A stretch of DNA of 64,000 nt from Diplonema papillatum (Eukaryota > Euglenozoa > Diplonemea > Diplonemida > Diplonemidae): NCBI GenBank assembly GCA_030068145.1, contig JAPJBO010000128.1, forward strand, positions 124,001-188,000, given 5' to 3'. This document shows positions 8,240 through 63,705 of this stretch, in pieces; positions within the stretch are counted from its first letter, which is position 1, and each line of letters starts with the position of its first letter. The position numbers and the translations under genes are program-made. The notes beneath the pieces are model-generated. The model was not told where the DNA came from and ran no database searches. It saw only the letters and a program-made list of their open reading frames with translations.

Positions 8240-8690
8240 GTGGGGGGAATACTTAGTTCAGTGTTCAGCAGAATCTTGCCTCCCGTATGTTTGATGCTAG
8301 CATCAGGTTCTTCTTCGAAGAAGAGAGGCAGGTGAGCCGGTCCGTCCCTATCTCTTGAAGCTGCATCGAAGCGCCTGCCGCTGTTTATCACAGTGAATCG
8401 CGGTCCACCACGGTCTATCAGGTCCATCCCTAGTCCCTAGAGCTGCATCGAATTGCCCGGTGCTGTATTATTCGGTCTATCACGGTCTATCACGAGGGGA
8501 TGGACCGGCTCAGAGGGGAGGGAGATCGTGGTTTGATGCTAGACAGAACACTGCCTCTCATGCATGATGGATGCTAGCATCAAGTATTCTTCGAAGATGA
8601 GAAGGGGGGAAATGTTAGTTTACGGTCGGCATGTTTTATGCTAGCATATCAAGTCTTCTTCGAAGATGAGAGGGGGAGGGTGGCATTGCA
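8240..8690. repeat. Cluster of short palindromic repeats (R5) with an R6 copy
   Basis: R5 pairs a GAATCTTG or similar stretch with the palindromes GATGCTAGCATC and CTTCTTCGAAGAAG. Copies occur near 8285-8320, 8560-8605 and 8630-8680; further copies lie at 9960-9990, 27690-27760 and 63735-63785. R6 occupies 8330-8520. No gene is seen here. Confidence 0.8.
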
Positions 8691-9056
8691 AGAACGTGCT
8701 GGGGATGGACAACGTGCTGCAAACCCGCACTGGTCCTGTCTGCGCCGTGTGTGCGGCGTCCTTTAAGCCATCAGCAGCGCGGAACCTGAGTGAGGACAGC
8801 CGTGTGAGTCGGGGGAGAGAATCTTAGTTTCGTTGTTCAGGCGATGCTTGCCTCTCCGGGAAGGGATAATTCGCTAGCTAGCTTCGGGGACGGCGTCGAC
8901 GGTGACAGCGATCTCGTCCGAGGTTGCAGCCGCTGCGGGCACGGGAGAGGTGGGCGGCGGTGACGCGGTGGTCAGCAGTTGAGGGAGATGAGCCGCGGGA
9001 CGGCCGGCTCCGAGGACACGCCGGCGTCGGAGCCGTGCAGCGCTGCTGAGGCTGGA
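8690..9056 (-). pseudogene. Truncated copy of the RING gene 3' end with its downstream flank
   Basis: The last codons of the RING gene (through SPVPAAAATSDE to the terminal PEAS and stop) reappear at about 9050-8874 with substitutions and a roughly 27-bp deletion. They are followed by the same downstream flank, including the GAATCTTAGTTTCG motif. The block 8690-9056 is a diverged tandem duplicate of about 9066-9470. It is not expected to be functional. Confidence 0.8.
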
Positions 9057-9278
9057 CTCCAAGGAATGGGGGATTGCAAGAACGTGGTGGGAGTGGATAA
9101 TGTGCTCAACACCACACTGGTCCCGTCTGCGCCGTGTGTGCGGCGTCCTTTAAGCCATCGTCAGCGCGGAACCTGAGTGCCTGCAGACAGGACAGCGGTG
9201 TGAGTCGGGGGGGGGAGAATCTTAGTTTCGTGTTCAGGCGATACTTGCCTCTCCTCTCCGGGAAGGGGGGATAATTTG

Positions 9279-12200
9279 CTAGCTAGCTTCAGGGATGGCG
9301 TCTACGGTGACAGCAACCTCGTCCGAGGTTGCGGCCGCTGCGGGCACGGGAGAGGTGGGCGGCGGTGACGCGGCGTCACGGTCAGCAGTTGAGGGAGATG
9401 AGGCGCGGGAGGCCGCGGCCGGGGCTGGCTGGGCCGGCTCCGAGGACGCGCCGGTGTCGGAGCCGTGCAGCGGCGAGGTCGAGCTGCTGAGGCGGGGCCG
9501 CGGCGCCGACTCGTCGCGCACGGTGACCATCTCGATGCCTTCGTCGTCGTCGTCCGGCTCCTTCGCGCGCCTGCGCAGCAGGCCCCTGCCCTCGCTCTCG
9601 TCCTCGTCGACCAGTGCCGGCGACTGCCGGAGCGGCCGCGGTGTCGGCACGTTCCCAGTGGCCACAGGGGCGGTGATCAAGTCGCCGTGGTTCGGCCTGC
9701 AATTTCGTGGTAAGGATCGTGCGGGGGAGGAAATCTTAATTTAGGGTAAGGTGCCTCAGGGGACTAGTCCTAAATGTGAAATGTGCCCTTAGGGGAATAG
9801 TCCCACTTGGAAATTGTTACCTTGACTTTTGTCAGGGAAATGCACTTAGCAAATCTTGAGCAAATTCCCAGTACTTCCCAATGAAATTGTTCGCCCTAGG
9901 GGACAAGTCCCCTAAGGCACGTTTCCCCTTAATTTAACTTCGTGTTCAGGAAAAATCCTGCCTCTCATGTTGACGTTAGCATCAAGTCTTCTTCGCGGGA
10001 CTGCAGACTTCGGTGTTCTTTTCTTCACCCTTTTCTTGCTATTGATCGATCACTTGTTATTGATGCTCGCATCGAGTAATTCGGTCTGACACCCTGACGG
10101 ATCACATCTCCACAAAACTGCGGTTTTCGAAGTGCCCCGCTTCTTAGAGATCTCCCCTTTGTTGGCAGTTCTCGTCCGGACAAAAGAAAATGCAGAAACG
10201 CTTCACGGCTGTGGCTGCAGCAGAACGAAGAACCCCGCTCTGCTGAAAGGCATACCCATGTTCCTGGTTGCTGTCCTCATCGTCGTCGTCGACATCGTCG
10301 TCCAGCATCACACGCTGGCGGCAAAGTGGGCATTCCGGATACTTCTTTTGCGCCTTCCCGATCTGTTTTAGAGTTAAAGTTCGCTTGAGAATCTGGGACT
10401 CTAGAGTCTCCGGGTGACCTTCGGCAATGGGTTATTTTAAACTGGGAGGTTGAGGGTTTGCAACCACATGCTTGGAGTGGACAAGTGCTCCTCACCGCGT
10501 CTGCGCCGTGTTTCGGTCTTTAAGCTACGGACACATAAGGCGGACCCATCATCAGCGCGGAACCTGAGTCTGCAGACAGGACTGCGGTGTGAGTCTGCAG
10601 ACAGGACTGCGGTGTGAGTCTGCAGACAGGACTGCGGTGTGAGTCTGCAGACAGGACTGCGGTGTGAGTCTGCAGACAGGACTGCGGTGTGAGTCTGCAG
10701 ACAGGACAGCGGTGTGAGTCTGCAGACAGGACAGCGGTGTGAGTCTGCAGACAGGACAGCGGTGTGAGTCTGCAGACAGGACTGCGGTGTGAGTCTGCAG
10801 ACAGGACAGCGGTGTGAGTCTGCAGACAGGACAGCGGTGTGAGTCTGCAGACAGGACAGCGGTGTGAGTCTGCAGACAGGACAGCGGTGTGAGTCTGCAG
10901 ACAGGACAGCGGTGTGAGTCTGCAGACAGGACAGCGGTGTGAGTCTGCAGACAGGACAGCGGTGTGAGTCTGCAGACAGGACAGCGGTGTGAGTCTGCAG
11001 ACAGGACAGCGGTGTGAGTCTGCAGACAGGACAGCGGTGTGAGTCTGCAGACAGGACTGCGGTGTGAGTCTGCAGACAGGACAGCGGTGTGAGTCTGCAG
11101 ACAGGACTGCTGCAGACAGGACTGTGAGTCTGCAGACAGGACAGCGGTGTGAGTCTGCAGACAGGACAGCGGTGTGAGTCTGCAGACAGGACAGCGGTGT
11201 GAGTCTGCAGACAGGACTGCGGTGTGAGTCTGGCTTGGGTGTTGCACCTGGTTCGTTGCTGTGGGACAACAGAACCTGCGGGGACAAAAGACTGAGTGTA
11301 TTTGTTTTCCCCTCCCGTCCAGTGCTCCCACTGAGGAAAAAAAACGGAGGAATTCCTCAAAAACCCGTACACCGCGAGAGTAGGAGAAAGTAGAAAAGGG
11401 AAACTAGAGTTTTCGTTGACCGCACTTTTTACACGTTTCAGGTGGCAAATTTGGCAAATGATCATGATCAGAAGGTCCTACTTGGGCGGTTCAGTTTCCT
11501 CACACATTGCATGTGGCTAAAAAAAAAAGGTGCTGAAAAATGCCCCGGAGGAATTTCTCCGGAGGAATTCCTCCGGGGGGCCCTGAGGAACTCCTCCGGC
11601 CTGGTACCTGGGGTGTAGGAGTGAACCCGTGTGGGTGTAGCTCGCGACTACTACTGGTCATGCAGTCTTTGCAGAATCTTTCTACCTCGACTTTGGCACC
11701 TGCGGCACGGACTGCTTCAAAAAACCGCGCCTAGGGCACAAGATGTGGCTGATAGTGCGAGCATGTTGACACATTTGGCGTCAAATCTGACTGAGTCCAA
11801 CACAAAACTGTGAAACTGGGAAGGACAGTGTCTATCCTCATGCTTATCAGGAGTCTTTGTGCTCTCAAATACTCTTTGGGCAGACCGCTGTGTGTGACAC
11901 CATGCCAGTTTTCGGGACTTCGTACTGCTCCTGACAAGGCCTCCGATTTTTCCCGCGCCTGCGGCGCAGGTATTCTTGACTATGTAGGATATTTGTCTCG
12001 TTTTGTGCAAAGTGTCCACCGGCAAAGGATTCATATCAAATTTATAAGGTGTGCTCATGACTGGTAGGAGGTGTGGTGGAGCAACCCATATCTAACTCCA
12101 GCTCACCGTGGGAGCACTGACAGACACTGCTAAAAAAAGCGCGACACCGCGACAGCCAATAATAAAATCCTCACTCCTATGCTTGTGTCACTCTCGTCCA

Positions 12201-14251
12201 CCGCTCCTGCTCTGCTTGCCGCGCGCCGTATGGTTGGAGTAAAAAGGTGAAGCCAGAAAGCTGCTAATCTTGCTGCTGACCACATGAAGTGGTGCAAGTT
12301 TCTTTTCCTACCTACCCCCCCGTGCATAAGATGGATGAATAATTCGAGTTTTGGCGGTATCCATCTTAATCAAGGGTGTATCCATCTTAAACACGGGGGC
12401 AGTGTAGACTACAGTGTAGTCGCCTTACACGGGGGTACCTCACCCCCGTGTTTAAGATGGATTGGCATTCTCGCCCGTTATCCATCTTAAACAAGGGGGT
12501 TTGGCTATCCATCTTATGCACGGGGGGTAGGCAGTGCTCCCGCTAACGAAAAAGTGCGAGGAATTCCTCAAAAAAAAAGAGGCTCGAAAAAAGAGGGTGA
12601 GATCTTTTTCCATTGGTGGTATCGTGTAGCCAAAGCACTGCATCACGGTCTACTCTCTGGGCATGGTGGGCTGGCGGGTAGAAGTTGGGGGCTGGAGCCG
12701 AGAAAGTGAGTCGAGGCTCAGAAACAGCCCCGGATTTCTTGGCAGATTCTCTCCGAGTCGACACAAGTGCCTTGTTCCATGTGATCTCTGGTCTGCATCT
12801 ACTCGTGGCAATGATTTACCAGCACACAGTATCGAGTGGTGGTTGAATTTGAAATGGGCTGTTACCTTCAGGAATGTGCAGTGTTTATTGTGACAAACAG
12901 ACTGAGAAGTGCAAACTTTCTCCACCTGTACCGTACCGTTCGCCGGGGGGCAGACCCCCCGGACCCCCCTTGAAAGATTCTGGTGCTCCCCTGGAGAAAA
13001 GCTTCTCGGTCTCAGAAAGTTGGTCGAGAAACCGGGGCAGAAACGAAGCTAATAACCTGTGCAGCACGGGGGAAAAAAAATTGGAGGCACAAAAAAAAAA
13101 ATCCAAAAGCAGGTTTTGGAATTCCTCACCAAAAGTGAGGTTAGCGGGAGCACTGGGGGTAGGTACAAAAAAAAAAAAAAAAAACTCTTCCTGAAAAAGG
13201 CTTCCTCTGGCATTTCGGAGGTAAGCGGGAGCACTGCTCCCGTCAAGAAAAAAGAAGACCGAACCTGGTACATGATGTAGTCCTTCATGCAGTTCAGGTG
13301 CAGCTGGTGGCCACACGGGAACTTGCCGCAGCGGTCTTCGGTGAGGTCGAGCAGGCAAATCGAGCACTGCGAGATGGTGTCGCCCAGCGGGACGTCGCAC
13401 GCCAGCTTTTCGAGGTACGCTTCGTACTTCATCTTGTGCTTCTCAATGAGCTCGGTCCGCAGCACGTTGCCGTCGTCGGGCGGCGGCCGCGGGTGCACCT
13501 GCCTGCACAGCACCATGAGGATGGCGACCAAGAGCAGCATGATGCCGGTTATCATCCACCAGAGAGGCGGCGTCGTGAGGTACCGCCAAGGGTACCCCTT
13601 GGAGTCCAAGCAGCACTCCTCCTTCGTCCAGAGGCATGAGTCCCCGTCGGCTTCGCGGCAGCCTTCTTCCTCGGACCACAGACAGCCGAGCGGCAGCCCG
13701 AGGAGAGTCAACGGATCGCACTCAGATTCCGGTGCCTCTGCCAGCAGTCCGACGTCGTGGAACCCGAAGCACCAGCACGTCTCCGTCGCGTTCTCCCACA
13801 CCACCTGCAGGTTCTGCAGCGGAGTGCCCAGGGACCCGTTCAGGTTCGGCAGCGCTGTCGGCCCGCCGTCGTCGACGGGCGAGTACTCCGCCGTGAACGC
13901 CACGAAGCACGCCCGGACGCAGCCCGCGCTGCCCGGCCGCTCGTCGTACGGGAGCTCGCCGTACGACACGTTCAGCGGCGCGGCCGGGACGACGCCGTTC
14001 TCCTGCGCCGCGGCGGCGACGCGGGTCCTGGAGAGGCAGGCCGGCGCCTCGTACGCCTCCCGGTACGACGACAGGAAGTTGCCGTACTCCCGCACGCACT
14101 TGGTGTCCTGCCCGATCCACTGCAGCGCACTCTCCCTCCACACCGCGTGCGGCACCCATCCGCTCGGGCGCGACCACGACATGCCCTGGCCCGCCGCCGT
14201 TTGCAGCAGCAGCGAGCAGCATGCCGCAAACAGCAGCGGGGCGGGGCGCAT
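9279..14251 (-). CDS. Membrane-anchored RING-H2 finger protein, probable E3 ubiquitin ligase (3 exons)
   Basis: Exons are 14251-13265, 10362-10256 and 9696-9279, giving 503 aa with GT-AG junctions and the frame kept. Residues 1-21 look like a signal peptide. A cysteine-rich ectodomain with N-glycosylation sequons near N94, N138 and N154 follows, then a membrane segment at about 229-250. The RING-H2 domain is split by intron 1: C296-x2-C299-x13-C313-x-H315-x2-H318-x2-C321 is in exon 1 and C340-x2-C343 (CPLC) in exon 2, which is ideal C3H2C3 spacing. The C-terminus is acidic and Ser/Pro/Ala-rich. By family knowledge such proteins recruit E2 enzymes and ubiquitinate membrane or secretory cargo; the substrate is unknown. 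The start is the ATG that opens the signal peptide. Intron 1 (2.9 kb) carries a 25-bp minisatellite, and the exon 2 acceptor abuts a dispersed repeat. Exon 3 is the least certain: it rests on splice signals, frame and composition, not on a recognised domain. Confidence 0.85.
10363..10430 (+). repeat. R1 fragment that supplies the acceptor of RING exon 2
   Basis: The plus strand TTTTAGAGTTAAAGTTCGC starts one base past the exon 2 acceptor. In sense the intron therefore ends with the reverse complement of R1, ...ACTCTAAAACAG, so the 3' splice site context comes from the repeat boundary. Confidence 0.8.
10566..11230. repeat. 25-bp minisatellite, about 26 copies, in RING gene intron 1
   Basis: The unit is GAGTCTGCAGACAGGAC followed by T or A and GCGGTGT; two variants alternate in blocks. 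Because 25 is not a multiple of three, all three frames cycle and stay open. One defective stretch lies near 11101-11130. The same 25 bp occurs once at the end of a dispersed repeat (7913-8065, 9066-9205), of which this copy (from 10455) is an expanded example. Confidence 0.97.
11400..11530 (+). mobile_element. SINE-like A-tailed repeat R3, copy 1
   Basis: Contains GTTTTCGTTGACCGCAC, GGTGGCAAATTTGGCAAATG and CCTCACACATTGCATGTGGC, and ends in a run of A. No Pol III promoter boxes were verified. It lies in intron 1 of the RING gene. Confidence 0.7.
12305..12537. mobile_element. MITE-like element with terminal inverted repeats built of a repeated motif
   Basis: The ends read CCCCCCGTGCATAAGATGGA and, inverted, TCCATCTTATGCACGGGGGG. 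Inside, the related motif TATCCATCTTAAACA.GGGG appears four more times in both orientations (about 12357, 12380, 12440, 12479). No coding capacity. It lies in intron 1 of the RING gene. Confidence 0.75.
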
Positions 14252-14585
14252 CGTTGCCCCAAAAGGGGGTGGGGGGGGGGGGGGGGGGGGGGTGGGGGGG
14301 GGAAAAAAGGGGTTTGGTTTTAGTGGGGGGGAGGGGGGGGTTCTCTCTCCTGTAGCGTGTTATTTGTGTTTCCGACGATCCCGTGGGACGTACAGATTGG
14401 TGTCTTTCGACCTTTTGTTTGTTTTGTGAGGTTCAGCTACATGTGGTCGGTGGGCGGGGGGGCTAGGATAGGAAGCTGTACTGGATCGGGCTAGACTTTA
14501 ACTCATACTCATGCTTGAGCCAAAATGCCCATTCTGCTGCCTTTCCGCTGGGCTCTCGGTAGCAGACCCGCTCGCATACACTTAT

Positions 14586-32760: not shown

Positions 32761-32779
32761 CTGCACCCAGCGGCCGCCC

Positions 32780-47394: not shown

Positions 47395-47540
47395 CGCAGC
47401 TGCGAGAAGCGGCACGTTTTCGCATGGACTGCCGATGAACGACGGCGGTGACAGCCGCCACAACGAGTTATGCTCGGGATGAAGGCGACGCGATGGAGCC
47501 GGCCTTCTTCCCCCCCTCCCGCTTCCCCTGGGAACGAAAG
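47395..47540 (+). pseudogene. Inverted fragment of the palmitoyltransferase 5' coding region plus direct copy of its 5' flank
   Basis: The plus strand at about 47397-47503 reads like the gene's sense strand (the SHGLPMND and GDAMEP regions recognisable), so this piece is inverted relative to the gene. It is followed at about 47505-47540 by a direct copy of the gene's immediate upstream flank (CCCTCCCGCTTCCCCTGGGA). Confidence 0.7.
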
Positions 47541-48789: not shown

Positions 48790-48940
48790 TCCCGACGGCG
48801 AGAGCCTCGGTTTTTTCGTTGGCGAGGTGCTTCCGGCCTTCTTGCGCGGGTTTGACTGCGGCACGGCCTGGGGTAGAACCGGCTCGTGGGACTGGTCGAG
48901 CATGTCCCAGACTTGGATCTGGGACTTCTCAGCACCAGCA
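48790..48940 (-). pseudogene. Fragment copy of DNAI3 exon 3, downstream of the gene
   Basis: Matches 49345-49500 (the segment encoding QVWDMLDRSHEP through LANEKTEALAVG) with a deletion of roughly 25 bp and a few substitutions. It lies about 85 bp past the DNAI3 stop codon and could be within its 3' UTR. Confidence 0.85.
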
Positions 48941-49024: not shown

Positions 49025-52000
49025 TTACCCGCTGTTTTCCTCGTCAAACTCCTGCAGCTTCGCCTTGAACTCTTCGATGGCCACCTCGATGAGGTGGCGG
49101 TCCGCGAACGGGTTCACGTCCTCGTCGTCGTCGTCGTCTCTGCGGGCGTCCAACTTGGACCCGACGTCCTGCTGCTGCGCCGCCTTCGCCTCGAGCTCCT
49201 TCGCGCGCTTCTCCCAGCGCCCTTCGTAGTAGTTGACCCGCTGGACCTCGCGCATGAGGTATTTCTCCATGTCCCCTTTTTCGTTGGACTTCGGCTTGAC
49301 CATCACCTTGGGCAGCCTGAAGATGTGCAGGAACCCGATGCGGGTCCCGACGGCGAGCGCCTCGGTTTTTTCGTTGGCGAGGTGTTTCCGGCCTTCTTGC
49401 GCGGGTTTGAACTGCATGCACGTGACAGCGTCCTGCGACACGGCCTGGGTTAGAACCGGCTCGTGGGACCGGTCGAGCATGTCCCAGACTTGGATGTTGC
49501 CGTCGGACGTGCCGATAAAGACCACCGACGGGCGCGTGGGCGACCAGCAACCCGCCGTCACTTGGCTCTCGATGTTCGGCGAGCTCACGATCGGCAGCTG
49601 GCAGTCGTACTTCCAGATTTTGAAGCACCAGTCCCCCGACGTGAGGTAGTAGTCGGGCAGCGACGGGTGCCGAGACACCGAGCAGACGGGCCCGTGGTGG
49701 CCCACCCGCCGGCCGTCGGCGAGGAACCCCGCGCACGTCTTGACGGCTTGCACTCTACTCGAGTCGTCGGTGCCGTAGTTGCTCGCCGAATTCGCGGACT
49801 CATTCGGCGCCCAATTCACGGTGACGAACTCGCCCTCTTCTGTCGCGACGCAGACCCTGTACGGGTCGAGCGACTTCTCCTCCAGGTACAGCCGGACCCC
49901 GAGGATGTCCCCAGAACCGTCTGGTTTCACCAGCGGGATTTTGATCAGCGGCAGCCAAGGGATGTCGCACTCGTTCTGCCTACCCTGGACGAGCTTTCGG
50001 TACTTGTCCTTGCGCATGTATTCCTTGTTGAGGTCCCAGACAAACATGTTGCCGTCGGAGCTGAGGGTGATGAACTGCCGGACGCCTTCGAAGACGAAGG
50101 GGACCTGCTCGGTGCCGCCCCAAGACTTTTTCATCTTGTTGGCCTCCGAGTGCGGCTGGCCGGACGGGACGAGCTTCCCGTCGAAGTTCGACTCGAGGCC
50201 GCCGGTGATCCAGCAGAGGTCGTTGACGGCGCGCTTGTGCCCGGTCTCGACCTTCGAGATCTCCTTCCACTGGATCTTCGGCGACGCCGCGTTGTCGCCG
50301 CCCTCTTCGCGGTCGTCGCGCTCCTGCGCGCGGTCCTTCTCGCGGGCGCCCTTCTTCCCTTTCCGGCTGCCCTGCGCCTGCTTCGACAAGTCCCAAAGCA
50401 CGACTTGCCCGTTGATCGCCCCGCCCACAACGATGTTCTCGTTGGTCGGATTGAACTTCACCACGTTGATTTCCTGCGGTTAGGTTTGTGGATACGGGGT
50501 CGCTTATTACTGGTATCAATGTTTCTTATTTCTCACAGCCTGTTGTTCTTGAAGCATGAGGCGGGGGATGAGGTCTTTGTTGCAGCGTTGTTTGTGCAGT
50601 CTCCGGTTGACCGTAGAGGCTTGGGGGGATGGGATCGAAGAGGATGCAATGTGTCACTCCGTCGTTAAGCTGTAACGTCCGCTGACGCGTTTAGGGGGGT
50701 GCTTGTTTGAAAGGGCCTGGTCAGCGTCCGGGAGCAACAAACCAGCAGAGGGTTGTGTGCCCGGTCTCGACCTTCGAGATCTCCTTCCACTGGATCCTTC
50801 GGCGATGCCGCGTTGTCGCCGCCCTCGTCGCGGTCGTCGCGCCCCTGCGCGCGGTCCTTCTCGCGGGCGCCCTTCTTCCCTTTCCGGCTGCCCTGCGCCT
50901 GCTTCGACAAGTCCCAAAGCACGACTTGCCCGTTGATCGCCCCGCCCACAACGATGTTCTCGTTGGTCGGAGAACTTCACCACGTTGATTTCCTGCGGCT
51001 GGGGTTTTGGACGAATACGGGTCGCCTCCTTTAATATCGGGCCGCGGGCTTTAGGCAGGACCAGGTTTTTAGGAGGCCGTGGGTATCTTGCAGAGAAAAG
51101 AAAGTTGAAACATTCGTTTCGCGCGGAGGTGAAATTTTACAGAAGAAAAAGAACGGAATAGGGGGGAATGTTCGCGTTTCTGATCGGCGCCAGTCTATCG
51201 TCATGCGGCCATTGCTTTTAACACACTGTTTCTTGCATCCTGTCGGTCGACAAGAGTAAGGTCGTAGCTCGGCATAAAACCGCGCACTAAAGGGCATGGT
51301 GCTAACATGTTTCGAGACCACGTGGAGAAAGGAGGGGTGGACTCGTTGGACGTCCCAACGGGAGACCAGTCCGCGAGAGGGGCCTTCATCTAGCCCTAAC
51401 TCGTGGCTATGGCGCGTGCTTGAGTAGCCCGCTGTTCCTGAAGCCTCCGGTTCACAGAACAAGTGGGAGGCCCCACCGTCGCCTTATGCACAACACGGCT
51501 ACAAGGCCTACGAGGAGGCAGCCCCGCTTACGTGTGTGACGCAGCCAGCACAGGGCCCCAGATCTCGCCGCTGGCGGCCGCAGCGGCAACGTTAGCAATA
51601 AAGGCGCGCAGCCCCAAATATAGTGCGCTGGCGATGCCGTACAATAGCTGCATCCGGCGGAGATTGATACGAGGAGGTGGCGCCGCTAGCCTGCCAGTCT
51701 CGCGACAGCTGCCCAATCGGCCCCCAAAGCGGCAAACAGCAAAAGAAGAAGGTTATGGCTAAAGACAAAGTGGTGTCACCTGAGGGGGTAATCTCAGGGC
51801 CGCCCGCGTGATAAAGCCGTAAGAAAACTTCCGCTGTGGATTCCCCCTTCCTGCAAAAACTCATCCTCGGCATACCTGTGGAGACTCGAGGACCCATCGA
51901 GGGTGGATGGGGTCAGCAAAGTCCCAGATGACCACCAGTGACGTCAGGACCTTGCGATTGAGGAACAAGCGCTCCATGTAGCCGCTGCCTTCTTCGTTCG

Positions 52001-55000
52001 TGTTGAACGACTCCCCGACGGCGATGCAGACGACACGCGACGAGCCAGGTCGCCAGTCAATCGAAGTGACCGTCTTGTTTTTCGTGAACTTGTGGTGTTG
52101 GAAGTTGCCCGCGTCAGTAAAAGCGGCGTCGTCCTTGCTACCTGCGATTGGAGAGAGGTTGACAGGAAGAAGGCGTGTGCCAACGGCATTTTATGAGGCG
52201 TGTGCCGACGACATTTTATGAGGCGTGTGCCAACGGCATTTCATAAGAGGTGTGCCAGCGGCAGTTTATGAGGCGGGTGCCGACAACATTTTATGAGGTG
52301 TGCGCCGACGACATTACATAAGAGGTGTGCCAGCGGCCTTTTATGAGGCGTGTGCCAACGACATTTTATGAGGCATGTGCCGACGACATTTCATAAGGGG
52401 TGCCAACGGCATTTTATGAGGCGTGTGCCAACGACAATACATAAGAGGTGTGCCATGAGGCGTGTGCCAACGACATTACATAAGAGGTGTGCCATGAGGC
52501 GTGTGCCAACGACATTACATAAGAGGTGTGCCATGAGGCGTGTGCCAACGACATTACATAAGAGGTGTGCCATGAGGCGTGTGCCAACGACATTACATAA
52601 GAGGTGTGCCATGAGGCGTGTGCCAACGACATTACATAAGAGGTGTGCCATGAGGCGTGTGCCAACGACATTACATAAGAGGTGTGCCATGAGGCGTGTG
52701 CCAACGACATTACATAAGAGGTGTGCCATGAGGCGTGTGCCAACGACATTACATAAGAGGTGTGCCATGAGGCGTGTGCCAACGACATTTTATGAGGCAT
52801 GTGCCAACGACATTACATAAGAGGTGTGCCATGAGGCGTGTGCCAACGACATTACATAAGAGGTGTGCCATGAGGCGTGTGCCAACGACATTACATAAGA
52901 GGTGTGCCATGAGGCGTGTGCCAACGACATTACATAAGAGGTGTGCCATGAGGCGTGTGCCAACGACATTACATAAGAGGTGTGCCATGAGGCGTGTGCC
53001 AACGACATTACATAAGAGGTGTGCCATGAGGCGTGTGCCAACGACATTACATAAGAGGTGTGCCATGAGGCGTGTGCCAACGACATTACATAAGAGGTGT
53101 GCCATGAGGCGTGTGCCAACGACATTACATAAGAGGTGTGCCATGAGGCGTGTGCCAACGACATTACATAAGAGGTGTGCCATGAGGCGTGTGCCAACGA
53201 CATTACATAAGAGGTGTGCCATGAGGCGTGTGCCAACGACATTACATAAGAGGTGTGCCATGAGGCGTGTGCCAACGACATTACATAAGAGGTGTGCCAT
53301 GAGGCGTGTGCCAACGACATTACATAAGAGGTGTGCCATGAGGCGTGTGCCAACGACATTACATAAGAGGTGTGCCATGAGGCGTGTGCCAACGACATTA
53401 CATAAGAGGTGTGCCATGAGGCGTGTGCCAACGACATTACATAAGAGGTGTGCCATGAGGCGTGTGCCAACGACATTACATAAGAGGTGTGCCATGAGGC
53501 GTGTGCCAACGACATTACATAAGAGGTGTGCCATGAGGCGTGTGCCAACGACATTACATAAGAGGTGTGCCATGAGGCGTGTGCCAACGACATTACATAA
53601 GAGGTGTGCCATGAGGCGTGTGCCAACGACATTACATAAGAGGTGTGCCATGAGGCGTGTGCCAACGACATTACATAAGAGGTGTGCCATGAGGCGTGTG
53701 CCAACGACATTACATAAGAGGTGTGCCATGAGGCGTGTGCCAACGACATTACATAAGAGGTGTGCCATGAGGCGTGTGCCAACGACATTACATAAGAGGT
53801 GTGCCATGAGGCGTGTGCCAACGACATTACATAAGAGGTGTGCCATGAGGCGTGTGCCAACGACATTACATAAGAGGTGTGCCATGAGGCGTGTGCCAAC
53901 GACATTACATAAGAGGTGTGCCATGAGGCGTGTGCCAACGACATTACATAAGAGGTGTGCCATGAGGCGTGTGCCAACGACATTACATAAGAGGTGTGCC
54001 ATGAGGCGTGTGCCAACGACATTACATAAGAGGTGTGCCATGAGGCGTGTGCCAACGACATTACATAAGAGGTGTGCCATGAGGCGTGTGCCAACGACAT
54101 TACATAAGAGGTGTGCCATGAGGCGTGTGCCAACGACATTACATAAGAGGTGTGCCATGAGGCGTGTGCCAACGACATTACATAAGAGGTGTGCCATGAG
54201 GCGTGTGCCAACGACATTACATAAGAGGTGTGCCATGAGGCGTGTGCCAACGACATTACATAAGAGGTGTGCCATGAGGCGTGTGCCAACGACATTACAT
54301 AAGAGGTGTGCCATGAGGCGTGTGCCAACGACATTACATAAGAGGTGTGCCATGAGGCGTGTGCCAACGACATTACATAAGAGGTGTGCCATGAGGCGTG
54401 TGCCAACGACATTACATAAGAGGTGTGCCATGAGGCGTGTGCCAACGACATTACATAAGAGGTGTGCCATGAGGCGTGTGCCAACGACATTACATAAGAG
54501 GTGTGCCATGAGGCGTGTGCCAACGACATTACATAAGAGGTGTGCCATGAGGCGTGTGCCAACGACATTACATAAGAGGTGTGCCATGAGGCGTGTGCCA
54601 ACGACATTACATAAGAGGTGTGCCATGAGGCGTGTGCCAACGACATTACATAAGAGGTGTGCCATGAGGCGTGTGCCAACGACATTACATAAGAGGTGTG
54701 CCATGAGGCGTGTGCCAACGACATTACATAAGAGGTGTGCCATGAGGCGTGTGCCAACGACATTACATAAGAGGTGTGCCATGAGGCGTGTGCCAACGAC
54801 ATTACATAAGAGGTGTGCCATGAGGCGTGTGCCAACGACATTACATAAGAGGTGTGCCATGAGGCGTGTGCCAACGACATTACATAAGAGGTGTGCCATG
54901 AGGCGTGTGCCAACGACATTACATAAGAGGTGTGCCATGAGGCGTGTGCCAACGACATTACATAAGAGGTGTGCCATGAGGCGTGTGCCAACGACATTAC

Positions 55001-58000
55001 ATAAGAGGTGTGCCATGAGGCGTGTGCCAACGACATTACATAAGAGGTGTGCCATGAGGCGTGTGCCAACGACATTACATAAGAGGTGTGCCATGAGGCG
55101 TGTGCCAACGACATTACATAAGAGGTGTGCCATGAGGCGTGTGCCAACGACATTACATAAGAGGTGTGCCATGAGGCGTGTGCCAACGACATTACATAAG
55201 AGGTGTGCCATGAGGCGTGTGCCAACGACATTACATAAGAGGTGTGCCATGAGGCGTGTGCCAACGACATTACATAAGAGGTGTGCCATGAGGCGTGTGC
55301 CAACGACATTACATAAGAGGTGTGCCATGAGGCGTGTGCCAACGACATTACATAAGAGGTGTGCCATGAGGCGTGTGCCAACGACATTACATAAGAGGTG
55401 TGCCATGAGGCGTGTGCCAACGACATTACATAAGAGGTGTGCCATGAGGCGTGTGCCAACGACATTACATAAGAGGTGTGCCATGAGGCGTGTGCCAACG
55501 ACATTACATAAGAGGTGTGCCATGAGGCGTGTGCCAACGACATTACATAAGAGGTGTGCCATGAGGCGTGTGCCAACGACATTACATAAGAGGTGTGCCA
55601 TGAGGCGTGTGCCAACGACATTACATAAGAGGTGTGCCATGAGGCGTGTGCCAACGACATTACATAAGAGGTGTGCCATGAGGCGTGTGCCAACGACATT
55701 ACATAAGAGGTGTGCCATGAGGCGTGTGCCAACGACATTACATAAGAGGTGTGCCATGAGGCGTGTGCCAACGACATTACATAAGAGGTGTGCCATGAGG
55801 CGTGTGCCAACGACATTACATAAGAGGTGTGCCATGAGGCGTGTGCCAACGACATTACATAAGAGGTGTGCCATGAGGCGTGTGCCAACGACATTACATA
55901 AGAGGTGTGCCATGAGGCGTGTGCCAACGACATTACATAAGAGGTGTGCCATGAGGCGTGTGCCAACGACATTACATAAGAGGTGTGCCATGAGGCGTGT
56001 GCCAACGACATTACATAAGAGGTGTGCCATGAGGCGTGTGCCAACGACATTACATAAGAGGTGTGCCATGAGGCGTGTGCCAACGACATTACATAAGAGG
56101 TGTGCCATGAGGCGTGTGCCAACGACATTACATACGAGGTGTGCCATGAGGCGTGTGCCAACGACATTACATACGAGGTGTGCCATGAGGCGTGTGCCAA
56201 CGACATTACATACGAGGTGTGCCATGAGGCGTGTGCCAACGACATTACATACGAGGTGTGCCATGAGGCATGTGCCGACGACATTTCATAAGAGGTGTGC
56301 CAACGGCATTTTATGAGGTGTGTGCCGCTCCGTGGTGCAAGCAAGGTTTACGATACGATGGAAGAGTTGTGCCTTCCAGAGTTCTTTGCGGAATAAAGGA
56401 CCGGTATGCTGGGATGGGCGCTAATCCGCAAGCATGGGGATATGGTTTGAAAAGAGAGTTGTAATATGGTTAAGGACAAAACAGTGGTGTCACCTGAGAG
56501 GGGTAAACTCAGGCCGCCCACGTGATAATAAAGAGGTGACGTTTACAGTGCTTTGAGGTTAAAAGTATCGGCAATTGATGAGAGGGTGTCAACCCGTGCA
56601 AGGGTTGCGAAGAGAGGTATGTGCTAGAGTTCTTTGAGGGTGAAAAGACCGGCACTGCAGGAAGGGCTGGTTCGATTGAAGGGAGGTGTTTTTACAGTAC
56701 ACTGGGTGGTAATGCAAGCATCGTTACAAAAATTCGATTGAAAAGTGGAAGAAGAACCTTGGGGTTGTAGGGACCGGCACAGCAGGGAGGGGCGGTAAAA
56801 TCCGCGCAGGTGGCGATTCAGAAGAGGTGGTGTGCAGTGTGATTTGGACCGCAGCAGACCGGAATTGTATGAGGGGCGATTCGATTGAGAGGAGGTGTAT
56901 ACAAGAGTTTTTCGGGGCTGGGAGGACAGGAAGGTTTTCCGACACCCGTTATCATGAATAAACTCAAGAGGTCGTCTTCTTGTTGCGTTCGTGGGGAATC
57001 ATTTGCATGAAAATGAGTACCACACTATACCGGCGTTTCGCTACGTGACTCCAAGAGGTCTAAACTTTACGATATTTGCTACCTGCAGTACTGAAAGTGA
57101 TGGTTCGTTTGAGAATCCGGGAGGGTAAAGTCTGACCATCGAATGGGATACTATCTAGTATGGTAGATAGGTGCAGTGGTGTACAGGTGTACGTCTTTTT
57201 TGAAGCGCGCTCTCATGTCCTGTTGAGATTAGTCAAATCCGGGTCGTGTTTGCATACGTTCCAGACGAAACACGTAGTTTTGTGCAGGCGCTGTATTGCT
57301 ACCCCAAGAAGGAGGTGGGGTGGCTCTACAGTCTGTTTGTGTCGACCCTGTTTGGTAGTTTCACCACGATACGCTGCCAACCGTCTCTCTTCAAAAAACG
57401 AGCTTGAATAATTTGTTTGTGCATACGTGTGTAACCCCTGTTTTAAGTGAGTTAGCACAGCAAACTGCCATCCGACGTTTTTTGATGTAGACAAGCAAGC
57501 TTGCTACCATAGGAAACAAGAAAGTTTTGTTGTATTCTTTTTCTCGACAACCTGTAGTGCTGTGGTGTGTGTGTGTGTGTGTGTGTGTGAAAGCAAAGCA
57601 CCGCAGACCTAGGAACGTGTCGTCGTCCATGAGCAACGCGTAGTCGTCGCGGAAAAGCTGCAGCAGGTTGTTGCACGTGCAGCTGTGCTCGATTTTGGGC
57701 AGCGCGCCCTTGAGGAAGTCCGTGACGCTTTGCTGCTCGGCCTCGGGCACTTCGCCGTCGCGGGCGTCGATGACCTGCGTCTTCACCTGGATGGCCGTGT
57801 TGACCAGCCGGTACCAGGGGGTTTGCACTTGCTTGTCCGACGTCTCGCAAACTGCCTGCACGCCTATGTCGTGCTCGCAGCCGACCCCCTTATCGTGGCC
57901 GAGCCTCTCGTAGCTCGGGTCTTTGAACGGGCGGTACTCGTGCGTGTGCTCCATGGCGTCGGTCGTCGACAGCTTAACCTCATTGTGCCGCTCGAGGAAG

Positions 58001-58122
58001 AACTGCCGCAGCCGCGTGTAGTGCACCCGGATCAGCGGCCGGGCCTGCTTCACCTTCTCGTCCGCGATCTCCCGGTCCGCACCGTATGGGCGGAACGTCC
58101 GCAGCTTCGCGGCGGCCGCCAT
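49025..58122 (-). CDS. DNAI3: Axonemal inner-arm dynein intermediate chain, DNAI3/WDR63 (IC140) type (3 exons)
   Basis: Exons are 58122-57609, 52141-51876 and 50473-49025, giving 742 aa with GT-AG junctions and the frame kept. Exon 1 holds the pre-WD region, including a DIGVQA motif like the DVGMQV of human WDR63. Exon 2 contains VTSIDWRP, a family-specific insert and VVIWDFADPIHPRWVLESPQ, which closely matches the human protein. Exon 3 holds the remaining WD40 blades (GGAINGQVVLWDL, LSSDGNMFVWDL, SGDWCFKIWKYD, GTSDGNIQVWDMLDRSHEP) and a charged C-terminal coiled segment. The protein is an intermediate chain of inner-arm dynein I1/f and acts in the flagellar axoneme. Relative to human (about 890 aa), 150-200 N-terminal residues are absent: either a shorter protein or an unfound 5' exon. 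The chosen ATG has G at -3 and G at +4. Intron 1 (5.5 kb) is mostly a 39-bp minisatellite. Intron 2 contains a frameshifted copy of the start of exon 3, acceptor included. Confidence 0.93.
50755..51000 (-). pseudogene. Pseudo-exon: copy of the DNAI3 exon 3 start within intron 2
   Basis: About 240 bp nearly identical to 50235-50480, including the acceptor context (sense CCGCAG/GAAATCAACGTGG). A 2-bp deletion near the start (plus-strand CGGAGAAC instead of CGGATTGAAC) breaks the reading frame. It lies about 280 bp upstream of the real acceptor in transcript order and could compete with it. Confidence 0.88.
52434..56275. repeat. 39-bp minisatellite, about 98 near-identical copies, in DNAI3 intron 1
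   Basis: The unit begins GAGGCGTGTGCCAACGACAT and ends with AAGAGGTGTGCCAT; its length of 39 bp is a multiple of three, so several frames stay open for over 1,100 codons on both strands without being genes. Copies are almost perfectly homogeneous. Exceptions are one aberrant unit near 52780 and a run of about four with TACGAGG near the right end. Degenerate units extend to about 52187, only about 45 bp from the exon 2 acceptor. The sense unit has no AG dinucleotide. Confidence 0.98.
56340..56945. repeat. Degenerate tandem sequence in DNAI3 intron 1, right of the minisatellite
   Basis: Recurring words (AGAGTTCTTTG, ACCGGCAC.GCAGG, GGTTCGATTGAAGGGAGGTG) suggest an old, diverged tandem array. 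A segment with GTGGTGTCACCTGAG at 56480 also occurs in intron 2 (about 51768). Confidence 0.55.
57362..57487 (+). repeat. Dispersed repeat R9, copy in DNAI3 intron 1
   Basis: Matches 27076-27205 in MAPK intron 3 in the same orientation (AACCCCTGTTTTAAGTGAG, CTGCCATCCGACGTTTTTTG). A (GT)n tract of about 28 bp follows at 57563-57590, close to the exon 1 donor. Confidence 0.87.
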
Positions 58123-58285: not shown

Positions 58286-59110
58286 TAGAAACTGCGTCCG
58301 CTATCGTCCGCTAACTCGGGAACTGCGTCCGCTATCGTCCGCTAGCTCGGAAACTGCGTCCGCTTGTCGGTGTCGGGCAAGTGAGCGCGCGCTGCTCGAA
58401 GGTTTTAGAACGCGTCGAGGAAACAACATCCGCAATGCCTCAATGCAGCACAACGCAACGATGAGGGGTGTCGGACACTTGCTTCGTAGGATTCGTTGTA
58501 AAACTTTTATCGGTCGGGATGCTACTAAGCAAATACATCGTAGGATTCGTTGTAAAACTTTTATCAGTCGGGATGCTACTATGTATTGATCAGGCTTACC
58601 AGGACCTGTCCAGCTACCGACATGCAACAACCAACTAGCGAACTCTGTTGGGTTAACTCCGTAAGTTCAGCACTTATGATATATTATTGGGTTCCTCCTT
58701 GCACACTTCCAGGTTCCGCCAGTAACACTTTATATCGAGGCACAGCGTCGTATCTGCAAGGCGGTCCACTCCTTCAAGACAAGGACATACTAGGAGGCTC
58801 CTCTGTCTTGCCACCGTTGTCGTACACTTGCTTCGTTCTTGGGTTCGCCGTGAAACTGCTATCAATGGGGACGCTACAAGGTATTGGCATCAGGCTTTTC
58901 AGGATCTGTCCCGCAACCGACATGCAACAACCAACTAGCGAACTCTGCTGGGGTGACTCTCCGTAAGTTCAGCATTTATAGGGTTCCCTGCACACTTCCA
59001 GGTTCCGCCAGTAACAATTTTCATCGAAGGCACAGCGTCGTATCTCTGCACTGTCCGTCCTTCAAGCCACTGACACAGCAGAGGTTCTCCTCTGTCTTGC
59101 CTGCTTGCCT
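58286..59110. repeat. Nested tandem duplications upstream of DNAI3
   Basis: Three copies of a roughly 30-bp unit (AACTGCGTCCGCTATCGTCC) at 58286-58375; a roughly 53-bp unit twice at 58488-58590 (GTAGGATTCGTTGTAAAACT); and a roughly 280-bp unit twice at about 58555-58820 and 58850-59110 (CCGACATGCAACAACCAACT). No coding exon is recognised. Confidence 0.9.
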
Positions 59111-59969
59111 TGCCAGCAATGATCCTCGAGCTTAAATATGCAGCAAAACGGATCGTGGAACCGGGTCTTTTTGTTCTCGAGAAACGACGCTCCCTCTGTC
59201 TCGCCGGGGAAACAGAGAGGGCGGGGGGGATCGGAGGGGAGAGGGGATGAAATGCTACAAGTTAGTCAACAGGTACAACAAAAAAACTACGTGTTATTTT
59301 TTGTCATCGTCTGGCAAGAAAACGGCGACGAAGGTGATGATTGTAGTGCCGCAAAGGGCGTCTAGAGGGGGAGAAAGCCGTAGACCCGAAAGCGTCCGAG
59401 AACGCAACAGGTGTCGCCGGGAGCCATGCACGGCGGCAGGGTTGTGGTGCCCAGTCATTCGACTTGGCTAAACTGTCGCTGCACGCCCGCACCGACTACT
59501 CTTTTTGCAGGGAGCTTCTCCCGAGAGAGGCTTGAACATAGAACCCTTTGGGCTTCGCGATGCAAAAGCACCAGAACCAAGAATACACAGGAACCTCCAA
59601 CAACCCCTGGACGATAAAGAAGGTACCGGGCGCAGGACGCCTCCACATGCGAACACGCATAGCACGGTGTGTCAGACATGAAGACGGCCAAAAATCCCCA
59701 GCGCTGCCAGCCGCTCGGGTCAGGTATGCCAAACGAGGTACATCTGCACGGATGGCAGTCGGATATGAAGAACAACACGTCGGGGAAACACGTGTACACT
59801 CGGATCAAAAGTTACAATCCGACTACGTCTGCTTAAAAAGCCAGAAGGTCCAGCGCTGTCAACCACTTGGGCCGGATGTCTTGAGGCACATCATCTGCAA
59901 GCGGGTTTCGATCAGATGTGAAGGACTTACATGATCAGCGGGTCGTGGGTGAAACACGCTTTGCACACA

Positions 59970-60170
59970 GTCGATGAGCCACGTCTGCACAGGCGTACGG
60001 TCGGGCACTTCATGGTACCGGGGCTGCGACCACCGGTCGCGCGCCGCCTGCCGCACCATCTGCTGGTGCAGCCGCCGACGACGACGCGTTCGACCCGCTG
60101 AAGCTCGCCCGCCAACCCAGCTTTTCGGCCAAACACGGCGGCACGCCCGGCACCAGCGGCACGTCGGCCG
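59970..60170 (-). pseudogene. 3'-end copy A of the proline-rich gene
   Basis: A shorter copy that starts at the same gene position as copy B, preceded by ACACGTGTTTACCAG in sense. It has lost the central region but keeps LHQQMVRQAARDRW and the terminal TPVQTWLI stop. The spacer separating copies A, B and the gene is itself duplicated (59777-59970, 60177-60390, 60808-61009). Confidence 0.7.
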
Positions 60171-60379
60171 TCTGGTAAACACGTGTACACTCGGATCAAG
60201 TGTCTCAATACAACTACGTCTGAGTGAAGAAAATCAGCCACTCGGCTGGGTGAGGAACATCAGCCACTTGGACCGGATGTCTCGAACGAGACACGTTTTC
60301 TGCCTGGGTGTCGAACGGATGTCAAGAAGAACGGACAGAGCCATGTTCAGCGGGTAGCGGCTGAAACACGCTTTGTACA

Positions 60380-60810
60380 CAGTGGGGCCCCTCAGATGAG
60401 CCACGTCTGCACAGGCGTCCGGTCGGGCACTTCGTGGTACCGGGGCAGCGACCACCGGTCGCGCGCCGCCTGTCGCACCATCTGCTGGTGCAGCCGCGCC
60501 CGCTCGAGGGGGCGGCGGCAGGTCCTCGTTGTACCCACCACCGCCACCGCCAACGCCACCACCCACGGCGGAGGCATCTCGCGCCGGCGAGAAAGAGCCG
60601 GCACGCAGCGGGGACGACGGGAATAACGCCGTCTGGCCGGTCTCGCGGGGTGGTGGTGGCCCATGGCCAGCGGGCTGCCAGGCGGCGCCGCCACAATCGG
60701 GATCGTGTTCGGGTTGACGGCCAGCCGCTCGAGCCCCGACGACGACGCGTTCGACCCGCTGAAGCTCGCGCGCGGCACGCCCGCCGCCAGCGGCACGTCG
60801 GCCGTCTGGG
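60380..60810 (-). pseudogene. 3'-end copy B of the proline-rich gene
   Basis: Begins at a sense CAG/ACGGCCGACGTGCC junction and contains SGSNASSSGLERLAVNPNTI. Compensating indels then change the middle frame, and it rejoins the parent frame for LHQQMVRQAARDRW through TPVQTWLI and the stop. The preserved stop, restored frame and acceptor-like CAG make an alternative terminal exon possible. Confidence 0.7.
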
Positions 60811-61009
60811 AAACACGTGTACACGCAGACCAAGTTTCTCAATACAACTACGTCTGAGTGAAGAAGAAGATCAGCCACACCGCTAAGTAAAGAACGTGGA
60901 TGTCCCGGGGAACGAGACACGATATCTGCACGGGTGTCAATCAGATGTGAAGGACCTAGCGGGTCGCGGGTGAAACACGACTTGTACACAGTCGGTCCCG
61001 GGACGCCCC

Positions 61010-62482
61010 TCAGATGAGCCACGTCTGCACAGGCGTCCGGTCGGGCACTTCGTGGTACCGGGGCTGCGACCACCGGTCGCGCGCCGCCTGTCGCACCATC
61101 TGCTGGTGCAGCCGCGCCCGCTCGAGGGCCGGCACACCCGCCCGCGGCCGCCGCGGCGACAGGGTCGGCGTGGCGGCAGGTCCCGGCGTCGACCCCGGCG
61201 GCGGGCTCCCGGGCGGCGGCAGGTCCTCGTTGTACCCACCACCGCCACCGCCAACGCCAGCGCCACCCACGGCGGAGGCATCTCGCGCCGGCGAGAAAGA
61301 GTCGGCACGCAGCGGGGACGACGGGAATAACGCCATCTGGCCGGTCGCGGGGTGGTAGTGGCCCATGGCCAGCGGGCTGCCGGGCGGCGCCGCCACGATC
61401 GGGATCGTGTTCGGGTTGACGGCCAGCCGCTCGAGTCCCGACGACGACGCGTTCGACCCGCTGTAGCTCGCCCGCCGCCCCGGCTTCTCTGCCGAAAACG
61501 GCGGCGCGCCGCCCGCCACCAGCGGCACGTCGCCCGCCGCGACGACCTTCATCGCAACGTGCCGCGGCTCCCGCGAGCGCACCCGCAGCAGCGCCGGACT
61601 GGGCGACCCCGAAAACGGCGGCGACGCCTGCCGGCCGCCGGGCCTGCCAACCGGAGACCGGTGGGAGTGGGCCTGCGAGTTTCTCTCGCGCGCCTTCTGC
61701 AGTATCCGCTGGATTGTGCTCTCGGGCTTGCTGAGGCCGACGCCCGGGTCTGGCGACCGCAGGTTGACCGGGCGGCCGGGTGTGCCGTGGAGGCGGGGGA
61801 CTGGGGGTGCGGGCAGGTCGGGCTCGTCCCTGCGCAGCACGTCTTCGATGTGCTTCGCTGCTTCGGCTAGTTGGAGGAGCTCTCGGTCCAAGTCTTCGGC
61901 GATGGCTTCGTCGCGGGGCGGCCGCAGCGTGTCGGGTGGGCGTGGGCGGCTGGGTTGCGGCGCGGGGCGCCTGGGAGGGGTCGTGCGGGGGCGGGTGTGG
62001 ATGGGTGTGAGGGCAGGGACCGGCGCGGTGACCGGCGGAGAGCCGGCAGATAGCGCCGCTAGGTGCTGCTGCTGCTGATGGTGCTGGGGGGTGGTGTGGG
62101 CGGCCGGGTACCGCGGCGACGTGAGGAGCTGGGGGCACGTCGGCGGCCGCGACAAGGAAGGCGGCGGGGGCGCCTGCTCGTGCCGGATGCCGGTCATGGG
62201 GCAAAAAGTGCACGCGGAGACCATCCGGCCGCAGTCGCTGCACATGCCGCCGGAGGCGACCACGCGCGGCTGCCCCCACGCCCTCCGAGACAGCCGGTCC
62301 GGGTCCGCCGCCTCAAGGTTCGGCGCCGGCGACTGCCGCTGCTGGTACCGCAGCTGGGCACCCCCCTCGCTCTGCCCCCTCCCCCCGCTCCCGGGCGGCC
62401 TCGACAGCGACCGTTCGTGGCGGTGCGCGCCGCCGTCCCACACGACAGCCTCGGGGTCCACAACCGGGTCGGGGTGCGCCAT
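61010..62482 (-). CDS. Proline/alanine-rich protein of unknown function with a small CxxC-CxxC motif
   Basis: Single open frame of 490 aa from the ATG at 62482. A possible small zinc site, C81-x2-C84-x6-C91-x2-C94, lies in the N-terminal part. A Pro/Gln-rich linker follows, then an acidic amphipathic helix at about 190-220 (DEAIAEDLDRELLQLAEAAK onward). A long Pro/Ser/Gly-rich region and a basic C-terminal block (LHQQMVRQAARDRW, ending TPVQTWLI) complete the protein. The domain family is not recognised. The helix and the C-terminal block are the best-kept parts in the neighbouring fragment copies, which suggests they are the constrained segments (inference). Two 3'-end copies lie downstream and two 5'/central copies upstream, all on the same strand. 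A longer overlapping frame (60234-62279) is a shadow. The gene could have alternative terminal exons, as described under the 3' copies. Confidence 0.62.
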   Translation of the reverse strand: MAHPDPVVDPEAVVWDGGAHRHERSLSRPPGSGGRGQSEGGAQLRYQQRQSPAPNLEAADPDRLSRRAWGQPRVVASGGMCSDCGRMVSACTFCPMTGIRHEQAPPPPSLSRPPTCPQLLTSPRYPAAHTTPQHHQQQQHLAALSAGSPPVTAPVPALTPIHTRPRTTPPRRPAPQPSRPRPPDTLRPPRDEAIAEDLDRELLQLAEAAKHIEDVLRRDEPDLPAPPVPRLHGTPGRPVNLRSPDPGVGLSKPESTIQRILQKARERNSQAHSHRSPVGRPGGRQASPPFSGSPSPALLRVRSREPRHVAMKVVAAGDVPLVAGGAPPFSAEKPGRRASYSGSNASSSGLERLAVNPNTIPIVAAPPGSPLAMGHYHPATGQMALFPSSPLRADSFSPARDASAVGGAGVGGGGGGYNEDLPPPGSPPPGSTPGPAATPTLSPRRPRAGVPALERARLHQQMVRQAARDRWSQPRYHEVPDRTPVQTWLI

Positions 62483-62734
62483 GGCCCCCCTCCCCCTCCT
62501 CTTGCCGGACTAAACAGCCACTTTGGCTGCTTCGGACTGTAGTACCCCCCCTTTTGGTTCGAGGAGGAGAGAGTTTCTTTTGGTTGAAAAGTGTGCTGTC
62601 TTCCGACCCTGATGGGTTTGGTAATCAGCGTGAAAGTTGGGAGGGAGTAAATAATAGTTTAATGTCTCAGGCAAGGTCTGCCTTCCGCGCATGGTTAATG
62701 CTGGAGTCCAGTTTTCTTTGGGAGAACGAGCAGT

Positions 62735-63062
62735 TTAGGCTCGTCCCTGCGCAGCACGTCTTCGATGTGCTTCGCTGCTTCGGTTAGTTGGAGGAGCTCT
62801 CGGTCCATGTCTTCGGCGATGGCTTCGTCGCGGGGTGGCGTAGTCGTCGCACGTGCCTCCCGTAGGCGGCCACGCGCGGCTGCCCCCACGCCCTCCGAGA
62901 CAGCCGGTCGCCGGCGACTGCCTGGGCACCTCCCTCGCTCTGCCCCCTCCTCCCGCTCCCGGGCGGCCTCGACAGCGACCGTTCGTGGCGGTGCGCGACG
63001 CTGAGCGCGCCGCCGTCCCACACGACAGCCTCGGAGTCCACCACCGGGTCGGGGTGCGCCAT
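62735..63062 (-). pseudogene. 5'-end copy of the proline-rich gene with internal deletion
   Basis: Retains an ATG at 63062 and the start MAHPDPVVD, then skips the CxxC and Pro-rich parts and ends in the acidic helix region (AIAED.DRELLQL.EAAKHIED). The frame is broken at the deletion. Confidence 0.8.
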
Positions 63063-63094
63063 GCCCCCCACCCCCAGGAGGAGAGGGCTTTTTC

Positions 63095-63365
63095 TTTTAG
63101 AGTTAAAGTTCGCTTGAAATGCCGGGGTTTTAGGGTCTCCGTGTGACCGTTCATGAATGGGTTCTCTTAGAGCAAGAAAGGGCTTTATGGTTACGGATTG
63201 TATATTTAGTGCATGCTTTCGTTATGGGTTATGGCTAGCCATATCCGGGACTGTTTGTGATCGACACCAAGTACATTCCTTCGTGGAGTGTAATCTTGGG
63301 CCCCCCACGTTCTACAAGTTGAGCAGGGGTTGCCTTGTAGCCCGTACCGGTCTGTTGTCCGCGTT
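63095..63365 (+). repeat. Dispersed repeat R1, longest copy
   Basis: The full order of R1 blocks, extended by GGGGTTGCCTTGTAGCCCGT and ACCGGTCTGT. It separates two partial copies of the proline-rich gene. Confidence 0.9.
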
Positions 63366-63519
63366 TTGGGGGGAAAGGTGTGCTGTCTTCCGACCCTGCT
63401 GGGTTTGGTATCCAGAGTGAAAGTTGGGAGGGAGTAAAGACTAGCTAATAGTGTCGTAGGCAGCAATGTCTGCCTTTCACGCGTGTTTGGTCAAGTCTTC
63501 TCGGGAACGAGCAGTCCAG

Positions 63520-63705
63520 GCTCGTCCCTGCAGCACGTCTTCGATGTGCTTCGCTGCTTGTTGGAGGAGCTCTCGGTCCAAGTCTTCGGCGATGGCTTCG
63601 TCGCGGGGTGGTCGCAGCGTGTCGGGTGGGCGCGGGCGGCTGGGTTGAGGCGCGGGGCACCCGGGCGGTGTCGTGCGGAGGCGGGTGGATGGGTGTGAGA
63701 GCGCG
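63520..63705 (-). pseudogene. Central-fragment copy of the proline-rich gene
   Basis: Covers the acidic helix and the preceding Pro-rich sequence (TLRPPRDEAIAEDLDRELLQ region) with small deletions. It shares with the 62735 copy an upstream block (62590-62740 and 63370-63535), so the two arose as flank plus fragment units. Confidence 0.78.

Follow-up and report, generated by a model that had tools for sequence, protein, structure and literature searches.

The genome of the marine diplonemid Diplonema (Paradiplonema) papillatum has already been reported to contain genes that are accompanied by pieces of themselves. Valach et al. (2023; PMC10161547) describe genes whose ends recur next to them as repeats, which cover the 5′ untranslated region (UTR) plus coding sequence or the 3′ ends of exons, lie beside the gene, in introns or in 3′ UTRs, and are degenerate. 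According to that paper, dozens of such gene models were noted during manual validation, the example given being a many-copy tandem array, and long (PacBio) reads support one repeat-bounded gene. Partial copying is also documented elsewhere: incomplete gene duplication is frequent among young duplicates of Caenorhabditis elegans and Drosophila, and, among the spontaneous duplications that could be detected in mutation-accumulation lines of C. elegans, 63% were incomplete (Katju 2012; PMC3449122). At a smaller scale, C. elegans lacking HELQ shows tandem duplications of approx. 100 bp to 10 kb, which are attributed to polymerase-theta joining of aborted homologous repair (PMC8654963), and polymerase alpha-primase acting at breaks provides another route to small tandem duplications (PMC8355091). 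In the present study we examined a stretch of 64000 nucleotides of D. papillatum nuclear DNA (assembly GCA_030068145.1, contig JAPJBO010000128.1, positions 124001–188000; hereafter the window), in which an earlier note, made from the sequence alone, had described seven genes, each accompanied by truncated copies of itself (hereafter shards).

The shards in the window are further cases of what Valach et al. described in this genome as repeat-bounded genes, in that a portion of a gene's own UTR or coding sequence is repeated nearby or in an intron for six of the seven genes and, under a sensitive search, for the remaining kinase gene. The phenomenon itself is already published for this genome, and the relevant passages of Valach et al. 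state neither a rate nor a strand bias nor a mechanism; the present analysis adds, for such copying outside genes, its strand bias, its dependence on distance and its rate, along with a rough rate of affected genes and the instances in the window. Whereas the systems reviewed by Katju were scored as gene duplicates, the pieces seen here are 50–500 bp long and mostly broken. The small tandem duplications produced by break repair are local and on the same strand, like those in the window, and may include patchwork insertions (PMC8355091 and PMC8654963), but they have been demonstrated experimentally in human, mouse and nematode, whereas our evidence is sequence alone and some spacers are left unexplained. 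The best account of the shards is that they are probably relics of many separate short-range same-strand duplications that subsequently decayed.

Local copies were identified by aligning the window with itself, masking repeat arrays with at least about three copies and retaining pairs of at least 50 bases with an expectation value (E) of ≤1e-6 and a spacing of less than 2 kb; 10 of the 36 resulting pairs had an arm that also occurred in the sample loci described below or elsewhere in the window, and their removal left 26. The pairs listed in the earlier note were recovered close to where it had placed them. All seven genes lie on the minus strand, as do the shards unless otherwise stated. The 3′ end of a RING-like gene has a partial copy at 8682–9042, which matches 9070–9472 directly (82%) across a spacer of 27 bp. 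A coiled-coil-like gene has 3′-side partial copies within 32305–32698 (32305–32428 against 32702–32848, 74%; 32629–32698 against 33313–33382, 96%), although much of the repetition in this gene, at 33360–34488, consists of internal tandem repeats of the open frame. Downstream of a ZNHIT3-like gene there are two tandem partial copies at 37144–37645 (37323–37645 against 37653–37969, 88%; 37144–37295 against 37893–38060, 86%), and the 5′ coding part of a DHHC palmitoyltransferase gene is represented within 47396–47543 by an inverted piece (47018–47080 against 47396–47458, 90%) and, in the unfiltered self-alignment, a direct one (47099–47141 against 47502–47543). DNAI3 has a partial copy of its last exon at 48790–48918 (parent 49345–49495, 82%) and, within the preceding intron, a frameshifted copy of the beginning of this exon (50236–50492 against 50756–51011, 96–98% identity, with two frameshifting indels); neither is used in the annotated DNAI3 protein. 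In a proline-rich gene, nine pairs span 59778–63713 with 74–95% identity, and in seven of these pairs one arm falls within the open frame; copies of its 3′ part occupy 59778–60776 (74–95%), and copies of its 5′ and middle parts occupy 62719–63713. In addition, a two-copy direct duplication at 58543–59101 (58543–58812 against 58841–59101, 78%) lies outside the identified coding exons.

At E≤1e-6, partial copies less than 2 kb away therefore accompany six of the seven genes. For the seventh, the kinase gene, a strongly diverged exon copy at 23939–24037 (parent 24225–24333) was detected by a sensitive search alone: 23949–24000 matched 24235–24283 at 79% in a 5-kb search (E 2.4e-6), scoring 39.2 bits against a maximum of 27.4 in 300 shuffles, but the pair is missing from the window self-alignment. 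The assertion that every gene in the window has copies thus stands at the stricter threshold for six genes and at the sensitive level for the kinase gene, and the further assertion that nearly all copies keep the parental strand agrees with 25 of the 26 retained pairs, the palmitoyltransferase copy at 47396–47458 being inverted. The copies are decayed, with one or more frameshifting indels in eight of 10 shard–parent alignments and an identity of 91–99% outside gaps. The range of identity among them indicates separate events.

To establish how local these copies are, five gene regions and the kinase region were searched against the whole 271-Mb assembly of this genome, which is described as approx. 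280 Mb in size, sequenced with PacBio plus Illumina and 52% repeats (PMC10161547). All candidates were scored for ZNHIT3 (two), the proline-rich gene (one) and the palmitoyltransferase (four), and 40 were scored for each of DNAI3 (of 91) and RING (of 1104). The kinase region matched only itself in the whole assembly. No distant copy of the proline-rich shards was found, the search with 59750–63080 matching only the local 63508–63713. The palmitoyltransferase region gave three partial distant matches of 46–150 bases at 76–87%, which resemble paralogues. Among the 40 scored candidates for DNAI3, the 41 matches elsewhere fall within 48750–48794 or 50592–50722 and are dispersed repeats rather than shards; we also observed that the similarity of the dispersed repeat at 48657–48794 to its other copies ends approximately where the DNAI3 3′ shard starts, a possible insertion junction. 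For RING, a dispersed repeat opens each unit, copy and parent alike: 9068–9209 matches dozens of dispersed sites, and the distant matches listed among the 40 scored candidates are confined to 9041–9253, the site of this high-copy repeat, so that the scoring of 40 candidates may have overlooked an infrequent copy of the unique part elsewhere. The ZNHIT3 region has a distant relative of approx. 415 bp on the same contig, 84 kb away (C128:76664–77079, corresponding to L026:2664–3079 in our locus numbering), which is a copy of the shard array and not of the whole gene, with 97% identity over 272 bp that include the shard–shard junction. With the exception of this array and the paralogue-like palmitoyltransferase hits, no dispersed copies of unique gene fragments were present among the scored candidates for the five regions. 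Within the limits of these searches distant copies are nearly absent: the shards lie near their parents, and one array has been re-copied farther away.

A sample of 23 loci, each 10 kb long and lying outside the window, was also examined. Its local pairs (<2 kb) comprise 59 direct and eight inverted, compared with 194 direct and 205 inverted between loci, a contrast that is highly significant (Fisher P=3e-10); these figures supersede a count over 18 sample loci together with six tiles of the window, in which 84 local pairs were direct and 13 inverted (207 and 230 between loci). The direct pairs are distributed as 11 overlapping, 12 at 0–100 bp, 21 at 100–500 bp, five at 500–1000 bp, 10 at 1–2 kb, 10 at 2–4 kb and nine beyond, and their density per kb therefore drops with distance. 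An excess of same-orientation repeats at short spacing is reportedly a feature of the close direct repeats that Achaz and colleagues found in eukaryotic genomes. The 59 pairs have identities of 67–100% (median 86%) and lengths of 51–493 (median 120). After removal of pairs with an arm in other loci, 44 direct and five inverted pairs remained, ‘not dispersed’ here meaning not seen in the other sampled loci, and the direct pairs define 23 places in 13 of the 23 loci. These data show a local excess, a same-strand bias and a spread of ages, and support the view that short-range same-strand duplication occurs genome-wide. The filtered density of detectable places, about 1.0 per 10 kb (23 in 230 kb) as against 1.4 per 10 kb for the window (nine in 64 kb), is probably too high for unique DNA, some of the places being in mobile elements. 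Duplication on this scale would keep adding sequence to the genome, and would also feed misleading gene models and supply raw material for tandem arrays; such arrays occupy 29090 of the 230000 sampled bases. Known biology is not overturned by any of this.

On which pathway is at work, which copy came first and what part selection plays, we infer that the duplications of approx. 50–500 bp across the D. papillatum genome most probably result from error-prone break repair or replication template switching that yields a tandem duplication, sometimes with filler; replication slippage is a further candidate among the local DNA-level routes. Selection would then preserve the coding copy, while a copy in a UTR, intron or spacer would drift, so that genes would come to look like ‘parents’, and duplications within coding exons would mostly be lost. 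The ZNHIT3, RING and 58.5 kb pairs have spacers of 7–28 bp, and seven other window pairs that were examined have spacers of 263–1482 bp. Of 30 pairs whose spacer measures 18–600 bp, 21 have a spacer that itself matches DNA less than 3 kb away, three of these matches being just 15–26 bases long. Such matches are predicted by longer duplicated units or by multi-copy clusters, and in the many cases that fall in multi-copy clusters filler and duplication look alike; in the proline-rich gene the duplicated unit seems to have been longer than the copies themselves. Matches to POLQ/HELQ-type helical domains are present in the genome, on C734 and on C816/C1033. Those on C816 and C1033 have identical scores and spacing, and these are perhaps redundant contigs. 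D. papillatum is transformable (PMC10161547), so the repair pathway could be tested.

Four observations weigh against this account. Plain tandem duplication does not account for the two DNAI3 pairs, as no match within 3 kb was found for their spacers (263 and 426 bp). An examination of the junctions of 23 pairs revealed no consistent microhomology and no pattern. Two of the cleanest sample pairs, in L012 and L018, sit inside high-copy elements according to whole-genome searches, which for sample pairs covered these two (the elements at L012:8968–9463 and L018:6178–6580 contain spaced direct repeats, 189 and 101 bp long respectively and 100% identical), so that part of the sample signal reflects the internal structure of mobile elements; we had considered these identical spaced pairs as fresh multi-step template switches, and rejected them as such for this reason. 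Finally, in the window one arm is coding and the other non-coding at seven of nine direct places, compared with 2.26 expected (P=0.0007), although the window had been selected for this trait and its exons were partly set by hand; with an automatic predictor and one pair per place the figure is five to seven of nine (P from <0.001 to 0.009 over four thresholds). This last result is what a process aimed at genes would produce, through transcription, R-loops or transcription–replication conflict in polycistronic clusters, in which case shards would mark active genes. Genes of D. papillatum are arranged in long same-strand clusters, and the genome paper names gene ends specifically (PMC10161547). 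The window also differs from the sample both in places with coding/non-coding pairing (7/9 against 3/23, P=0.001) and in shard-bearing genes (6/7 against 2/22, P=0.0004). In the sample, however, such pairing at three of 23 places is no more than the 2.25 expected under random rotation (P=0.39; 0.23–0.61 at four predictor thresholds of 20–50, with or without L012 and L018). Only two of 22 predicted genes in the sample have a shard, and three of 22 have any local copy, the third (L007) being internal coding repetition; the coding predictor behind these numbers is rough, a threshold of 40 giving 25 segments in the sample and nine in reversed sequence. Kinesin motor domains, which detect motor-domain shards only, tell the same story: 132 matches from 122 scored candidates of 231 were grouped by hand (same contig and strand, <10 kb), and approximately one of 114 loci has, less than 2 kb away, a second piece whose overlap exceeds 20 profile positions (C31:394524–396014). 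A rule that every gene in the genome has shards was rejected on these two counts, whereas the broader idea of a recurrent local process across the genome gains from the same-strand excess, the spread of ages and the local shards. Given the choice of the window for this very trait, its hand-set exons and the imperfect label of non-dispersed pairs, we treat it as a particularly rich case of a general process, its richness perhaps being due to that choice. A gene-aimed process is kept as an unlikely rival, and it is similarly unlikely that some regions of the genome are hot spots of gene-directed short-range duplication, perhaps driven by transcription–replication conflict in polycistronic clusters; if they were, nearly every gene in a hot spot would shed and renew its own fragments.

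Insertion of transposable elements with very long target-site duplications, or capture of gene fragments by mobile elements, would account for the dispersed repeats that adjoin the DNAI3 3′ shard and lie within the spacer of the DNAI3 exon pair, for the high-copy repeat at the start of the RING unit and for the position of the L012 and L018 pairs, but captured fragments would be scattered genome-wide whereas the shards of the five regions searched are mainly local, and some spacers measure 0–30 bp. Dispersed repeats as a general feature of spacers were rejected, their share in the 30 pairs above being 0.164 against a background of 0.172, a comparison that covered sampled DNA only and missed the DNAI3 spacer repeat seen in the whole-genome search; mobile elements seem an improbable source. 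That the copies are an artefact of assembly is very improbable, since they differ by 1–26% and carry frameshifting indels, a pattern not expected if a single haploid locus had been assembled twice; the sequenced strain is reported to be haploid, and PacBio reads confirm one such locus (PMC10161547). The earlier note had dismissed retrocopies of spliced mRNA on the grounds that the copies keep intron signals. This argument is weakly supported: past the CAG, the match of the DNAI3 exon copy to the intron side is marginal (67 of 2000 shuffles reach it), which to that extent favours retrocopies. Locality and strand are better arguments: 25 of the 26 window pairs are on the same strand, beside their source. 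Internal exon pieces occur among the shards, the DNAI3 exon copy has no upstream exon sequence and the DNAI3 shards contain no exon–exon junction, and an origin by retrocopying is hardly credible. Decayed short-range duplications remain the account that we favour.

The identities of the parent genes rest on alignment, Pfam searches and coding score. DNAI3 comprises three coding blocks from 58104 down to 49028, obtained by alignment to the annotated D. papillatum Dynein intermediate chain 3: a first coding exon at 57601–58104, a middle one at 51876–52142 and the last, parental, exon at 49028–50479, which is 100% identical with residues 259–742 of that protein. The kinase exon (24159–24740; Pkinase, 95.4 bits) and the DHHC palmitoyltransferase gene (46175–47164; 94.7 bits) likewise bear out the names given in the earlier note, but its RING and zf-HIT assignments fall below the Pfam cut-offs. 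The 5′ part of the RING-like gene (13049–14254) has an open frame, coding score and a sub-threshold zf-RING_2 match (22.4 bits; cut-off 27.3), and its predicted 3′ coding exon (9279–9740), as assigned in that note, is an open frame with a coding-score segment at 9402–9695; the zf-HIT (ZNHIT3-like) gene at 37729–38310 scores 21.6 bits (cut-off 24.7). The coiled-coil-like repetitive open frame (32780–35320) and the open frame of the proline-rich gene (61010–62509, which also has coding score) had no match in the Pfam search.

Other repeats and fragments were also observed in the window. An isolated fragment of eukaryotic small-subunit ribosomal RNA lies at 22970–23234 on the plus strand (79 bits, model positions 1225–1478); scattered pieces of 28S have been reported in this genome (PMC10161547). 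A search of a plasmid collection gave no match. The first DNAI3 intron contains a minisatellite at 52171–56302, with 25-bp units followed by approx. 100 copies of a 39-bp unit (99%). Members of one dispersed repeat family, all in the same orientation, occur at 7163–7392, 24772–25137, 35724–35929 and 63095–63331. At 41942–43763, two arrays of CAACTATGCG-type repeats in opposite orientation form long inverted repeats of up to 170 nt (98%).

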